Part shown: positions 12,220 to 45,366 of the stretch, piece by piece | Layout of the letters: every line of letters starts with the position of its first letter | Numbering within the stretch: the stretch's first letter is position 1 | Source: a virus | IMG/VR virus record: IMGVR_UViG_3300028800_000069 | Coordinates: 1-64,000 of that record | DNA: 64,000 nt | Strand: one strand, 5' to 3' | The notes under the pieces: model-generated | What the model was told of the DNA's origin: nothing | The model's input: the letters and a program-made list of their open reading frames with translations, nothing else | The model's database searches: none | Program-made: the position numbers and the translations under genes

Positions 12220-12585
12220 TTATACCTTGGCGGCTGTTGCCGCTTCCTCTTCCAATTCCTTTGCGATCCTAGCTTCGTGCTCTTCTTGTTCTGCCTGCCA
12301 ACTCGTCTTGACTTGGGGAGACTGGAAGCTAGCGAAGCTTGGTTTTTCAGGTTTCTTTGCAGTGGGATCAATGCCTACGCGCCGATTTATATTCAGTTCG
12401 TATATACTGATTTTGGTCTGAAGAAACGCCTTCTCCGTTCGAAGCTCAGCGATCACCTGATCCTTGTCTTGTCGTACTCTTTGCAGGTCTTCACGTAGAA
12501 GAAGTAAATCTTTTTCTAAACGATCAACCAGCGACGAGTAGAACAGGTCATCCCAGAAACCTCTTATGCTAGATGCGATGCTCAT
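12220..12585 (-). CDS. Coiled-coil virion-operon protein
   Basis: 121 residues. Residues about 20-60 form a clear heptad-like coiled coil (LVDRLEKDLLLLREDLQR), and the C-terminus is Glu/Ala-rich. The start overlaps the terminase stop (ATGA). The adjacent terminase suggests a packaging-related or virion role, but this is not shown. Confidence 0.65.
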   Translation of the reverse strand: MSIASSIRGFWDDLFYSSLVDRLEKDLLLLREDLQRVRQDKDQVIAELRTEKAFLQTKISIYELNINRRVGIDPTAKKPEKPSFASFQSPQVKTSWQAEQEEHEARIAKELEEEAATAAKV

Positions 12586-14261
12586 CCTTGATCCTGCTTT
12601 CCCATCCACACCGCTTGTTCCGGTGGGCGAAACGATGCATGCTTATTCTCGTTCTCTGCATCGAGCTTCATCTTTAGAAAATGTGCTGCTAGAGGATCAG
12701 TCTTTTTCAATGCAGCAACTCTTTCTGCCTCGACTTGCGCTTCGGGTTTCTTTTTGGCTGCTAGGTATCCGTACAGTCCGTATCGGAAACCGTCGTAGCA
12801 GTCATCACCTTTGGCGTTGACCTTTAGCACATCGTCCATCAAATCAGGGTTTCTCATCAACGACGGAATTGCTAAGATTATCTCTTTGCATGTGTCGAGG
12901 ATTACTAATTCACCTTTTTTGATAGCATTGTACATTAGCGATGCAGAACCTATGCGGTCCCTTGTCGCAGATGTAACCGGAGGAAGTCCCACAAGCTTCA
13001 ACGCTCGTGAGTATTCGTCCGCTGGTGTGCGGCTGTCCATTTGTCGATTAAACTTTTCGTGTGAAAAGTATATGGCCTTTAGAGTTACTGGTCTACCGTC
13101 TGGAAGGTGTGCTTTTGCTTTGATGATCGAGGCTAGCTCGTCCATCGTCTTTCCACCTGTTACCACTATCTCTTGAAAGCAAACTGTCTTGAGTCGGTAG
13201 TTGTCTCCAACTGAGTCCTTAACCATCGCTTTCGTAAATAAATACGTAGCGTTGGCGTGCTGCATGCCCCAGTCTTCTCCAGCCCAGCACGGTTGCCAGT
13301 CTTGCCAGATGATAGCCTCGGGGTCTTCTCGCAAATTTAATACGTGGTATGATGGGTCAAAGCAATCGAAGTATTGACCTTCAACTGCACCGTCGAACCC
13401 ATACAGAACTTTGTCGCGTTTCGCTTTTGGCATCGACATCAAACGAGCAACAATGCCGGGGTCGCGTGCTAGCAGTTCTGGGTTATCCAGCACTGTAGAT
13501 CGCTGATAAGCGTACGCATCTGGATCGTAAATCTTATTCCATTCTCCAGACTCTTGAATCCACCATGAACCGTCCACCGGATCACGCTTAGCGTCTTCTC
13601 CGGGGTTCCATGGTTCTTTCTGAACGAACAGCGTGCGGTAGTACTCGTAGTGCGGACCTAATGGGTTGGTGCATCCCACAATGGCCGGGATTGGAAGATT
13701 GCCTGCCTCGTCCCTCTCGCAAGCTGGGTTCACAATGTTACGTTGGAACAGCATCATCCACGCATCCGGCGAGAACTGTCCACATTCATCTACCAGAATG
13801 GCTGGGTATGCTTGTCCTAAGTACTGTTCGATATCTCTATCTTTGTTGTTCTGGCAATGCCCGAAGACTACGCGGGAGCCGTTCTTTAAAGTAGCAACGT
13901 GCTTCGTCTGGTCATAGTCATATAGTTCCTTCGGCATGAAGGTCTTGAAATCGGCAATAGCTCCGTTTTCCAATTCCTTGAAGTTCCTACGAAGGACCAA
14001 CAAGTTGCATCCTGTCCACTGCAGACAGTAATGCATCACAAAGTACATCAACCATCCACAGGTCTTTCCTGAACGGATTCCGCCAGTGCTGAGACACTGA
14101 CCAGCTGCTGGTTGAAGGTACACTTTGCCATCGCGCTGTACATACCTTAGCAACTCTGTTTGCTTTGCCTGAAACTTGAAAATCTTATCAAAGTTCAGCG
14201 TGCCGTCCGAGTTCAGGTACGGCTTTGTTTCTACCGCGTCTGTAGTTTTTCTACGGGGCAC
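12582..14261 (-). CDS. terL: Terminase large subunit
   Basis: 559 residues. The ATPase domain has Walker A GGIRSGKT near residue 60 and Walker B AILVDECGQ near 154. The nuclease domain has the acidic GEDWGMQHANATYL segment near 327 and DDCYDGFRYGLYGY near 489, matching the RNase H-like metal sites of TerL. It cuts concatemeric DNA and pumps it through the portal. The start is GTG with GAGGC upstream, 8 bp after the previous stop. All key motifs are intact. Confidence 0.93.
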   Translation of the reverse strand: MPRRKTTDAVETKPYLNSDGTLNFDKIFKFQAKQTELLRYVQRDGKVYLQPAAGQCLSTGGIRSGKTCGWLMYFVMHYCLQWTGCNLLVLRRNFKELENGAIADFKTFMPKELYDYDQTKHVATLKNGSRVVFGHCQNNKDRDIEQYLGQAYPAILVDECGQFSPDAWMMLFQRNIVNPACERDEAGNLPIPAIVGCTNPLGPHYEYYRTLFVQKEPWNPGEDAKRDPVDGSWWIQESGEWNKIYDPDAYAYQRSTVLDNPELLARDPGIVARLMSMPKAKRDKVLYGFDGAVEGQYFDCFDPSYHVLNLREDPEAIIWQDWQPCWAGEDWGMQHANATYLFTKAMVKDSVGDNYRLKTVCFQEIVVTGGKTMDELASIIKAKAHLPDGRPVTLKAIYFSHEKFNRQMDSRTPADEYSRALKLVGLPPVTSATRDRIGSASLMYNAIKKGELVILDTCKEIILAIPSLMRNPDLMDDVLKVNAKGDDCYDGFRYGLYGYLAAKKKPEAQVEAERVAALKKTDPLAAHFLKMKLDAENENKHASFRPPEQAVWMGKQDQG

Positions 14262-15176: not shown

Positions 15177-15569
15177 TTAGAAAATCGTTAGACCTTTCAA
15201 GATGGCACCTTTCTTGAAAATCCCTCTATCAGAAATCTTTTGTCTCTGCTCTTCAAAAGCAGGCCCGTGATCATCACGCATTTTGGTTGCTACATGACAC
15301 ATCTCGTGCGCTAGTGTTGCAAGAACGGCTGTCTTACCGGGATTTTTGGTTTTGCTGATGATGATTATGTACTCGTGTCGATAGTGATCTTCGGCAAATG
15401 CCGTTGGAGAGTCGTGCTTGTCTGAAGTCCATGCAAAGTACTTTTCTTCAAACTTCTCAATCTCCAATTCGTTGATCCATCGTACACACACGTTGCTTGG
15501 AAGTTCATTGTGAAAGAACTTTTTATTTATAAGTCTGTACCAATGCTTTAGACACTTGTCGGATCGCAC
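15177..15569 (-). CDS. SprT-like zinc metalloprotease
   Basis: 130 residues with the zinc motif HEMCH (LATLAHEMCHVATKM, near residue 87) and a preceding Ile/Tyr-rich strand (HEYIIIISK), as in SprT/Spartan-type proteins. Such proteins process DNA-protein crosslinks in cells; phage copies may act on DNA-bound or virion proteins. Starts at GTG with GGAGAATC upstream. It lies immediately downstream of the structured RNA region and its terminator-like hairpin. Confidence 0.8.
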   Translation of the reverse strand: MRSDKCLKHWYRLINKKFFHNELPSNVCVRWINELEIEKFEEKYFAWTSDKHDSPTAFAEDHYRHEYIIIISKTKNPGKTAVLATLAHEMCHVATKMRDDHGPAFEEQRQKISDRGIFKKGAILKGLTIF

Positions 15570-15619: not shown

Positions 15620-16082
15620 ACAAAGGCTCAACCCTGTTAAGAGTTGAGCCTTAAACCCACCGTTCTTCACGGCAGGGGTGTATTTGAATGTGTCCTGTTA
15701 CCAGCCACGCGTTAACGCGGTCTTACAAGTTTTAGGGTACAGGTAAATCCCTTATGTGTGACATTCCCGAACTCGTGCCTTGCAAGGGTGAGGATCGGTG
15801 TCACTTGCTGCTGGTATAACCTGAACGCTACAGCTATACGTTCCCGGTCGCTGTTAATAAAGCCTATTGAGATAGAACAGCGAACGTCTCACAGGCTTAG
15901 TCGTTGAGTTGGCCTTGGCGCAACGATACGCCTTATGCGGTTTCCGTACCCCGCGCCGTTGCGTGCGGTGAAGACACGACGGACTAGTGCAGATCGAGGG
16001 ATGATCACTTCCCAAACATCTGCTTTCGATGCATCTCCTCCACCCCTATAGGGCACGTGCTTAAGTTACACCAAGCATCGAA
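15620..16082 (-). ncRNA. Large structured non-coding RNA candidate
   Basis: No good gene is present, but nested complementary segments cover nearly the whole interval: TTCGATGC/GCATCGAA (16025-16032, 16075-16082); GCAGAT/ATCTGC (15989-15994, 16018-16023) with an inner GGGA/TCCC; CGCAACG/CGTTGCG (15919-15925, 15957-15963); a 12-bp helix (15838-15855 with 15876-15887) whose loop pairs onward as AAGCCT/AGGCTT, making a pseudoknot; TACCAGC/GCTGGTA (15699-15705, 15810-15816) closing a multibranch domain that holds GTGACA/TGTCAC and CCGA/TCGG; and a 10-bp terminal hairpin (15623-15652) followed by TTTGTCGTTT on the minus strand. Size and complexity recall ROOL or GOLLD phage RNAs, but I cannot assign a family. 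Confidence 0.75.
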
Positions 16083-16085
16083 TCT

Positions 16086-16289
16086 TTACTTACTGATCTC
16101 TTTTGACTTTTCAACCGTTGGTCCGTCTTGAGCCAACGCTCCCAGCATTTCAAAACCGGGAGTCGTAATCATTGTGCCGCGCGGTTCGCTACGGTACAGT
16201 GTGTCGAGTTTCCTATGCGAATACGTTTCTTTCACGAAGTCTATCGTGAGGAAGATCGCAAGGAATAACAGAACTAAAAGAACTGTCAT
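16086..16289 (-). CDS. Small single-pass membrane protein
   Basis: 67 residues, MTVLLVLLFLAIFLTIDFV then a soluble tail ending EKSKEISK. One N-terminal membrane helix. A GTG 9 bp upstream is an alternative start; ribosome sites are weak for both. It is the first gene upstream of the structured RNA. A lysis or membrane-anchor role is possible but not shown. Confidence 0.55.
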   Translation of the reverse strand: MTVLLVLLFLAIFLTIDFVKETYSHRKLDTLYRSEPRGTMITTPGFEMLGALAQDGPTVEKSKEISK

Positions 16290-16401
16290 TGTGCTCACAC
16301 TTTCTTTTCAAACTGGTCGGCTTTGCGAGGGGCGCGTCTCGCGTAGTCCGCGTCTCGCGGTGCATGCCTCGTTCTCTGCCATCAGCCGTCGTAAAGCTTC
16401 C

Positions 16402-16764
16402 TCAGTCTCTCGCGAGCCGCTGAGGTACCGGGTGCGTTTGTGTCTGCACTTGACATCTGTGAAATTTGCGGTGACAATTCGAACACAGTGTGTCGCACTT
16501 TGCTATTTCCAAAGCAAGGTGTTGCACCGACCAACCGTGATTGATTGCTGTCGCTATTTCCAATTCTTTTTTGCTTGGGTCTCTGTGGTGGAAGTCTAGA
16601 CATGCATCGTCTGCTTCTCCACACTGTATACAGGGATGTGTGCACCTGTACTCAGTTACCCATTTCTTTACTGCGGCTTTACGGTTCTTGTTCTCGTCTA
16701 ATCTTTGTTGCTTGTGCTTCTCGTAAAACCTTCTGCTCCACAACGCTTGTTTGGTCCTTGTCAT
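16402..16764 (-). CDS. HNH endonuclease
   Basis: 120 residues. CTHPCIQCGEADDACLDFHHRD gives one zinc pair and the HH catalytic dyad, and CDTLCSNCHRKFH gives the second pair. The N-terminus is basic. The ATG start is placed after GAGAAACGT; the open frame extends 45 bp further up. Free-standing homing-type nuclease between small minus-strand genes. Confidence 0.85.
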   Translation of the reverse strand: MTRTKQALWSRRFYEKHKQQRLDENKNRKAAVKKWVTEYRCTHPCIQCGEADDACLDFHHRDPSKKELEIATAINHGWSVQHLALEIAKCDTLCSNCHRKFHRCQVQTQTHPVPQRLARD

Positions 16765-16814
16765 ACGTTTCTCATTTCTGAGACTTTCGTATAACGGAGG
16801 GTCCACCACTCGGT

Positions 16815-17181: not shown

Positions 17182-17496
17182 TTAGTACTTCTTCAGATAC
17201 TCTAGAGCGCTCTCGAATAGATCAATTCTATCTTGAAACATACCTAGGACTCTGTTACATGTGCCACATAGAAAACCTCGTGGTACCGGAGGGTCTGAGT
17301 GCTTATGGTCAGCATGCAGTCTTCTTCCGTTAGTGGACTTTCTGTGGCATATAGCACACATTCCATCTTGTTTCTTCTCTTGCTCTTCGTAGCGTTCTTT
17401 TGTCCACCCTTGTTTCTTAACACGCCAAAGTAATTTCCTTAAACTTTCATCATAAGGATTGCACTTACACGCGCATTTACATCGTGAACAAGGCAT
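17182..17496 (-). CDS. HNH nuclease of the endonuclease VII family
   Basis: 104 residues. Cys-rich N-terminus (MPCSRCKCACKC), then DGMCAICHRK, LHADHKH and RGFLCGTCNRVLG, matching the zinc and DH sites of endonuclease VII-type HNH proteins, a shorter relative of the gene at 3716. The start has TTTGGAG upstream. It is the first minus-strand gene after the divergent promoter and is expected to be transcribed first. Confidence 0.85.
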   Translation of the reverse strand: MPCSRCKCACKCNPYDESLRKLLWRVKKQGWTKERYEEQEKKQDGMCAICHRKSTNGRRLHADHKHSDPPVPRGFLCGTCNRVLGMFQDRIDLFESALEYLKKY

Positions 17497-17686
17497 GTTT
17501 TCTCCAAAGGTATAAGATGGCGAGGTGCGGCAAGTTCTCCGCACCACTGTACAGTTTCGCCAATGTCTCTATGCCGGGGCCGTCACAACCTCGAAAGGAG
17601 ATTACGAGGGACAGGCCCCGGCGTGCTACGCCGCATTGCGCGGTTGGTGCGGAAGAGAACTTTGCCCTTATTTGGGCTACTCTTAA

Positions 17687-44695: not shown

Positions 44696-44893
44696 ATGCA
44701 ATCACGCACACCTGAAGGCAAGCACACCAAGCGGTTCATCATCTTAGTCGCGGGATCGGACAAGCAATACGTTCGCTCTGGAAACGATGGGCTTAGAGGG
44801 TTTTTTGCCACGAAGGAAGAGGCTCAGGCCGCTCTGGAACCATCCAAGGGTTTGACCAGCACAGGTTTGACCTACAAAGTTCGACAGAAGTAA
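44696..44893 (+). CDS. Small beta-rich protein
   Basis: 65 residues, MQSRTPEGKHTKRFIILVAG to YKVRQK. AAAGGAGAACACA upstream. Sits after the leader-like element. Function unknown. Confidence 0.55.
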   Translation: MQSRTPEGKHTKRFIILVAGSDKQYVRSGNDGLRGFFATKEEAQAALEPSKGLTSTGLTYKVRQK

Positions 44894-45366
44894 GTCACCA
44901 AGTTACACACGTCAAAGAATGATTGCAGCATTGCAACACCTCGGTTCGAATCCGAGCAGGTCCACCAAGGGACATACATGCTGTGTACAGGCATGACACT
45001 CAAGAGCGGCGGCTGGTTAACTCAGACCGTGCAGCGTATCAGCGAAGAACTGGACCGCAGAGTGTAAGCTGGGGAACGGCATCCCTACTGTATGTATGCC
45101 CCTCGGTGGGCCTGATACTGGTTATCGACTGCGATGGACTGAGATCATTTTCGTGTCGGATTCTGCCTCGCCACGTTACGGAGAGTCAAAACCAAAAATG
45201 CTAACGATAACATCGTTTCTGCACCCATGAAGGCTATGGGCGCTGCTGCTGGTCGCTAAAGCAGTAGTGCAGTCTCACCACGCGGACCCCGGCTCAGTCC
45301 GGGGCCACCCGCAGTGGGAAAGTGTGGGGAGCAATACCAACGTCTGGAGAATTAGAGGAACATTAA
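44894..45366 (+). other. Non-coding gap with tRNA 3'-end sequence
   Basis: 473 bp. At 44940-44967, CTCGG-TTCGAAT-CCGAG, CAGGTCC, A and CCA exactly mimic the T-arm, acceptor 3' strand and CCA tail of a tRNA, but no GGACCTG 5' strand lies at tRNA distance. Further along a CCCCGG/CCGGGG hairpin is at about 45285-45302. One tiny ORF (44978-45067) is listed separately. The tRNA-end sequence could be an attachment-site core, a degraded tRNA or part of a structured RNA. Confidence 0.5.
44978..45067 (+). CDS. Possible 29-residue peptide
   Basis: MLCTGMTLKSGGWLTQTVQR then ISEELDRRV. Plausible codon pattern, AAGGGA upstream, amphipathic helix. Too short for a firm call. Confidence 0.35.
   Translation: MLCTGMTLKSGGWLTQTVQRISEELDRRV

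Follow-up and report, generated by a model that had tools for sequence, protein, structure and literature searches.

A large, pseudoknotted non-coding RNA located after tRNA genes in one phage lineage, probably a new class

The DNA analysed here (the window, 64,000 nucleotides) is part of an 82,727-base IMG/VR virus record. On its minus strand, an interval of about 460 nt separates an SprT-like gene, itself followed by the large terminase gene, from a small orf of 70 aa for which no Pfam match was obtained (Table 1). The initial annotation had placed a structured RNA inside the virion operon at this position. The RNA lies instead at the upstream edge of that operon and closes the upstream unit of tRNA genes or small orfs. 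Its conserved 5' motif, AAAGAUUCGA, begins at position 16087 and overlaps the stop codon of the small orf, while a terminator-like hairpin forms its 3' end. In most variants of the RNA, a terminator separates it from the SprT-like and terminase genes. Genes similar to the two small endonuclease-like orfs found upstream in the window recur around the RNA site in relatives.

Table 1. Positions of the RNA, its structural elements and the neighbouring genes in the window
Feature	Position	Strand	Description
Large terminase gene	12582-14261		two to three genes downstream of the RNA
SprT-like gene	15177-15569	-	downstream of the RNA; PF10263, E 4.6e-7
Whole RNA	15623-16087	-	about 460 nt; homologues in 23 contigs, without conserved frame
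Terminator-like hairpin	15623-15652	-	AAGGCUCAACUCUUAACAGGGUUGAGCCUU; 13 pairs, loop of 4, weak T tail
3' hairpin	15656-15680	-	CACCCCUGCCGUGAAGAACGGUGGG; predicted fold
PK2	15694-15752	-	stem A AGGG 15749-15752/CCCU 15734-15737; stem B CCUGU 15739-15743/ACAGG 15694-15698
P4 domain	15758-15804	-	closing stem GUGACA/UGUCAC; covariation
Ph hairpin	15823-15843	-	GAACG-UAUAGCUGUAG-CGUUC; GAGCG/CGCUC in L042
PK3 (accessory)	15845-15899	-	helix 15876-15886/15845-15855 (I5); AGGCUU 15860-15865 with AAGCCU 15893-15898
PK1	15901-15932	-	hairpin GGCG-UA-UCGUUG-CGCC 15917-15932, linker GGCCAACU, knot partner CAACGA 15901-15906
P3b hairpin	15937-15956	-	GCGG...CCGC; GCGA/UCGC in L025
P3 hairpin	15956-15982	-	CCGU-CGUG...CACG-CA-ACGG; read from the sequences
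Py hairpin	15989-16023	-	outer stem GCAGAU/AUCUGC, inner stem GGGA/UCCC, loop with self-complementary UGAUCA
P1	16025-16082	-	UUCGAUGC (16075-16082) with GCAUCGAA (16025-16032); inverted repeat I8
Upstream small orf	16086-16298	-	70 aa; stop codon touches the RNA
Endonuclease-like orf	16402-16809	-	upstream of the RNA
Endonuclease-like orf	17182-17547	-	upstream of the RNA; endonuclease VII (PF02945)
Permuted (two-piece) tmRNA gene	44875-45350	+	intergenic; RF04321, 52.3 bits

The absence of a believable gene, claimed at first from the letters alone, was borne out by comparison with the homologues: none of the frames extends beyond 63 codons from stop to stop, and none is preserved. When six-frame peptides of the interval were compared with 14 homologous loci, no conserved protein was detected in any frame. 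A coding explanation was rejected, as the only matches were short, scattered over several frames and both strands, and interrupted by stops in the homologues. The interval had also been described as almost fully structured, and its minus strand indeed folds better than all of 100 shuffled sequences (z = -3.4). The plus strand folds somewhat less well (z = -2.5). Because of this minus-strand fold and of the terminator-like hairpin at its end, the RNA is read from about 16087 to about 15623. This hairpin had likewise been predicted, and was found with a poor T tail; most homologues have, in the same place, a hairpin whose sequence differs and which is accompanied by T runs. The initial observation is confirmed, size included, and the existence of a structured non-coding RNA at this locus is near certain.

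Homologues were searched for with the SprT-like and terminase proteins, with DNA patterns and with a covariance model (R1) built from 12 PK2 sequences. The RNA was found in 23 further IMG/VR contigs, some of them near-identical to one another, which represent about 16 distinct variants. Distant members outside the training set of R1 (L070, L086, L071/L073/L075 and L082/L083) were detected with E values from 1e-13 to 2e-6. L079 and L080 were picked up because they share a 3' hairpin, and PK1 then identified them on inspection by eye. The shortest copies, in L086 and L082, measure about 250 nt, and the longest, in L004 and L042, reach about 600 nt or more. Wherever the length of the contig allows telling, the RNA lies upstream of the same p117, p169 and terminase genes. 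The terminase of the phages that bear it is about 67% or more identical to that of the window, and no match was obtained in relatives with a 61-67% identical terminase. Among GenBank phages, the window RNA was unmatched and the L086 RNA gave only a chance-level match of 26 nt; a further viral scan with the PK1 pattern revealed no new lineage. A pattern scan of bacterial genomes gave no homologue-level score among the listed matches tested, which does not show that the RNA is absent from bacteria.

Two pseudoknots, neither of them named in the initial annotation, carry most of the covariation. PK1 has the general form of a hairpin GGNG-UA-x-CNCC, followed by the conserved linker and by x', a segment complementary to x, where x may be UCGUUG, GCGUUG, AGAUUC, UGCUG, GAGAUUG, UCAACUG, GUAUCC or GGGUUC. 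In alignment A3, 100% of 126 cells were paired, with pairing at each of the nine positions in 14 of 14 sequences. Changes on both sides were seen in every one of the five knot pairs, and slid controls were paired at only 32-51%. PK2 contains the conserved segments UUGUAAGACC and GGCUGGUAAC, and UUGUAAGNCC is conserved together with the latter across the PK2 variants. Its stem A occurs as AGGG, GAGG, UCGG, GGGG, AAGG or GCGG and its stem B as CCUGU, CCCGC, CCAGU, CCGUU or CUCGGU, each with the corresponding partner. In alignment A4, 98.3% of the PK2 cells were paired, and both-side changes concerned 31 cells versus 7.1 in shuffles.

The helices P1, P2, Py and P4 were annotated by hand. Their strands were paired at 97-100% with their own partner versus 49-74% when swapped between homologues. 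For P1, 10 distinct strand pairs were observed in 15 variants (97% canonical, 67% when swapped); for P4, six distinct strand pairs in 11 variants were all canonical (66% when swapped); and both stems of Py covary in eight variants. As hand annotation favours pairing, these figures carry less weight than the column counts of PK1 and PK2. All the covariation counts were made without phylogenetic correction (R-scape was not used), and L079 and L080, which were misaligned by MAFFT in alignment A5, were both checked by hand. Covariation in P1, P2, Py, P4, PK1 and PK2 is strong, so that the proposal of a structured RNA escapes the refutation that a lack of covariation would have brought.

The 12-bp helix with a 6-bp loop pseudoknot singled out earlier corresponds best to PK3, with arms at 15845-15855 and 15876-15886, and to this extent the observation stands. 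The element is accessory, however, and more weakly supported. Four variants have it, with three different knot sequences among them and some of the pairs mismatched: in L004, L042 and L018 the knot is formed by other sequences, each pairing at 5-6 of 6-7 positions, and the helix of L018 pairs poorly in the register tried. More generally, P3/P3b, PK3, Ph and Py are gained or absent from variant to variant. The inner stem of P3, CGUG/CACG, is replaced by CUGC/GCAG in L005, L039 and L042, and L042 contains internal repeats. A Py block of 38 nt is identical in the window and in L018/L020 amid diverged surroundings, which suggests recombination.

The genes located up- and downstream of the RNA differ between variants, and tRNA genes recur on its upstream side. 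A tRNA (Ala, Gly, Asn) precedes the RNA in L086, L027 and L004, with at most about 10 bases between its 3' end and the start of the RNA, and in L009, L039 and L042 tRNAs are found a short way upstream. A tRNA-Ala-like sequence was recognised by eye before the RNA in L079, without a call by ARAGORN. No tRNA adjoins the RNA in the window phage; a small orf takes its place there and in L018 and L071, and another small orf does so in L070 and L082. In the more distant relatives L090, L035 and L119, a tRNA-Ala is directly followed by a terminator-like hairpin, and in L107 a tRNA-Asn is followed by about 110 nt of other sequence and then by such a hairpin. Searching L090, L035 (via its longer copy L097), L119 and L107 with R1 gave no match. 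The gain of a cassette in a single subclade, inserted after the last tRNA and before the terminator, would explain this most simply, although no tree was built. Taken together, and at the level of sequence comparison, the structure of the RNA, its non-coding nature, its strand, its linkage to tRNA genes and its confinement, within the collections searched, to a single phage lineage are established.

This arrangement bears on what the RNA might do for its own transcript. It could be a 3' stability or processing element that blocks exonucleases and protects the tRNA or small-orf transcript, without any role as a separate molecule. Pseudoknots can stall exonucleases, and the RNA is always the 3'-terminal element of the upstream unit, adjoining the terminator. 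However, the conservation of both structure and sequence far exceeds the needs of protection, and the relatives manage with a terminator alone; we consider this explanation improbable.

As in many riboswitches, a terminator stands between the RNA and the genes that follow. This could point to a leader or attenuator acting in cis on the SprT-like/terminase operon, with the large fold deciding whether the terminator forms. Yet the gene downstream of the RNA is not SprT-like in L079/L080, so that there is no fixed downstream association, and L042/L016 have an HNH gene downstream of the RNA and lack the usual terminator. These variations make a cis role unlikely. Furthermore, the sequences of the terminator stem change freely between variants, and most of the distant relatives have a terminator there without the RNA.

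The large terminase gene is separated from the RNA by only a short distance (Table 1), and this position, together with a self-complementary loop, could also recall a DNA-packaging RNA comparable to the pRNA of phi29. This is very improbable, as the RNA is unmatched in the relatives with a 61-67% identical terminase and accompanies tRNAs, not motor genes.

In scans against Rfam 15, no family matched the RNA. The lack of a recognised family signature, noted at first without such a comparison, therefore holds, GOLLD and ROOL included. Eight records of the group were searched with the models of GOLLD (RF02032) and ROOL (RF03087), and neither gave a match at E<=10, the ROOL search being without a positive control genome; the threshold for membership was reached in neither case. 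A self-splicing group I intron was rejected too, as the core of RF00028 was unmatched in the interval at E<=10 and the same library gives 86 bits in L094; the R- and S-like strings CAACGACUA and ACUAGUCC are in the wrong order and not conserved. HEARO or OMEGA RNAs were set aside in the absence of an Rfam match and of any adjacent IscB or TnpB gene, except for a remnant in L021. A TnpB guide RNA was not retained either: the L021 element interrupts the RNA, and none was seen at the other homologues. In that record (L021:1-540), the copy of the RNA is split by an IS605-like insertion with a C-terminal remnant of TnpB, as judged by eye.

A ribozyme, or a remnant of a self-splicing intron or of the guide RNA of a mobile element (group I intron, HEARO- or TnpB-type RNA), nevertheless had to be weighed, given the pseudoknotted core, the homing-type HNH and endonuclease VII genes nearby and the TnpB remnant. 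Against it stand the lack of any intron, ribozyme or HEARO match in a library that finds the group I intron of L094, the interruption of the RNA by the L021 element, and the 5' boundary, which is at a stop codon (window, L080) and not within a gene. Little credit can thus be given to an origin of this type.

The suggestion that the RNA recalls ROOL and GOLLD in style, and is perhaps a new class, was upheld: neither model matches, and the RNA follows tRNA genes in relatives. This last point strengthens the comparison, since ROOL and GOLLD, both of which form RNA-only cages, are phage RNAs of tRNA islands (PMC12286853). GOLLD, which binds ribosomes in pull-downs, is also large, pseudoknotted and located in phages near tRNA genes, and its 3' part is conserved while its 5' part is more variable, as is the case here (PMC12286853). 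The location typical of GOLLD (phage or prophage, often near tRNAs) is met. By contrast, the present RNA measures 250-600 nt, GOLLD often exceeding 800 nt, and its conserved motifs are its own; the closed cage of GOLLD is a 14-mer. ROOL shares the phage origin, the proximity of tRNA islands and several pseudoknots (PMC12286853), but is larger and forms an ordered RNA-only nanocage. Searching the titles and abstracts of the open PMC literature revealed no description of such an RNA, a scope that leaves out most subscription journals. The RNA belongs to neither ROOL nor GOLLD and probably forms a class of its own, new among the large phage RNAs but of the same general type.

As for its function, we put at about even odds (0.5) that it is an autonomous structured non-coding RNA, the last cassette of a tRNA transcription unit, which works like ROOL or GOLLD. 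It would be transcribed from upstream with the tRNA unit, its 5' end would be freed by processing beside the tRNA or the stop codon, and its own terminator would end it, so that a discrete RNA would span from AAAGAUUCG to the terminator. It would fold into a modular core (P1, P2, PK1, P4 and PK2), to which hairpin modules are gained or lost. The folded object, neither a message nor a cis-acting switch, may then self-associate, bind the translation apparatus during infection, or both. In the absence of expression data, transcription, 5' processing, self-association and the link to translation are all inferred. The formation of oligomers and the binding of ribosomes by this RNA are without direct evidence. 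The shortest variants (about 250 nt), far below ROOL and GOLLD in size, count against such a mode of action, as does the lack of a tRNA beside the RNA in the window phage.

A role in the takeover of translation is indicated, by inference, by the linkage to tRNAs and by the presence in the same phages of a permuted tmRNA. Such a gene was found in seven of 10 long records from these phages, the window's and six others, and seems therefore to be conserved in the lineage. The tmRNA (RF04321), an RNA of the translation system, resembles the present RNA in being pseudoknotted; unlike it, the latter contains no tRNA-like domain or tag frame recognised by ARAGORN or Rfam. The motif GAUUCGA at the 5' end had raised the question of a tmRNA identity, which was rejected, as both programs find only the separate gene listed in Table 1.

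Self-association is suggested by the Py loop. Its self-complementary GAUC is present in eight of the eight variants annotated with the hairpin and is the only GAUC of the RNA in L004, L010, L025 and L070. In these four, no other GAUC is available for it to pair with inside the same molecule, which suggests a kissing dimer. Conversely, the loop reads GAUU in L079/L080, other variants have no Py hairpin, and a conserved loop of four bases is self-complementary by chance in 16 of 256 cases. We mention only tentatively, as a doubtful extension, a new class of RNA-only assembly in which copies self-associate, the GAUC loop providing one of the contacts, and form a defined oligomer whose task would be to hold or serve ribosomes or the tRNAs of the phage. 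If true, phages would possess, besides ROOL and GOLLD, a third RNA of tRNA islands with an evolutionary origin of its own. The known ornate phage RNAs of tRNA islands, ROOL and GOLLD, both form RNA cages whose purpose is unknown; an apparently unrelated further class, with variants of about 250 nt and a changing set of modules, would suggest that such RNAs evolve repeatedly in phages, and would offer a smaller and better dissected system for asking what they do for phage translation.

Some further observations concern the surroundings of the site. In L090 and L091, the region upstream of the terminase gene contains 26 tRNA genes, and R1 gave no match. In L042 (5268-5361), between the tRNA-Ala and the RNA, a match to YrlA (Y RNA-like, RF02553) was obtained with 46.5 bits, below the gathering score. 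A Ro-protein partner, considered on account of this match, was not retained, no TROVE protein being found in the record of the window. In L088 (5305-5470), about 130 nt without genes lie in the equivalent place, between a tRNA-like sequence and a terminator, and are dissimilar to the RNA. Finally, a tRNA-adjacent stretch before a terminator in L092 (4104-4530), which has only the P4-like segment UUGAUCCGGUACUGGC in common with the RNA, is perhaps a diverged relative of it.
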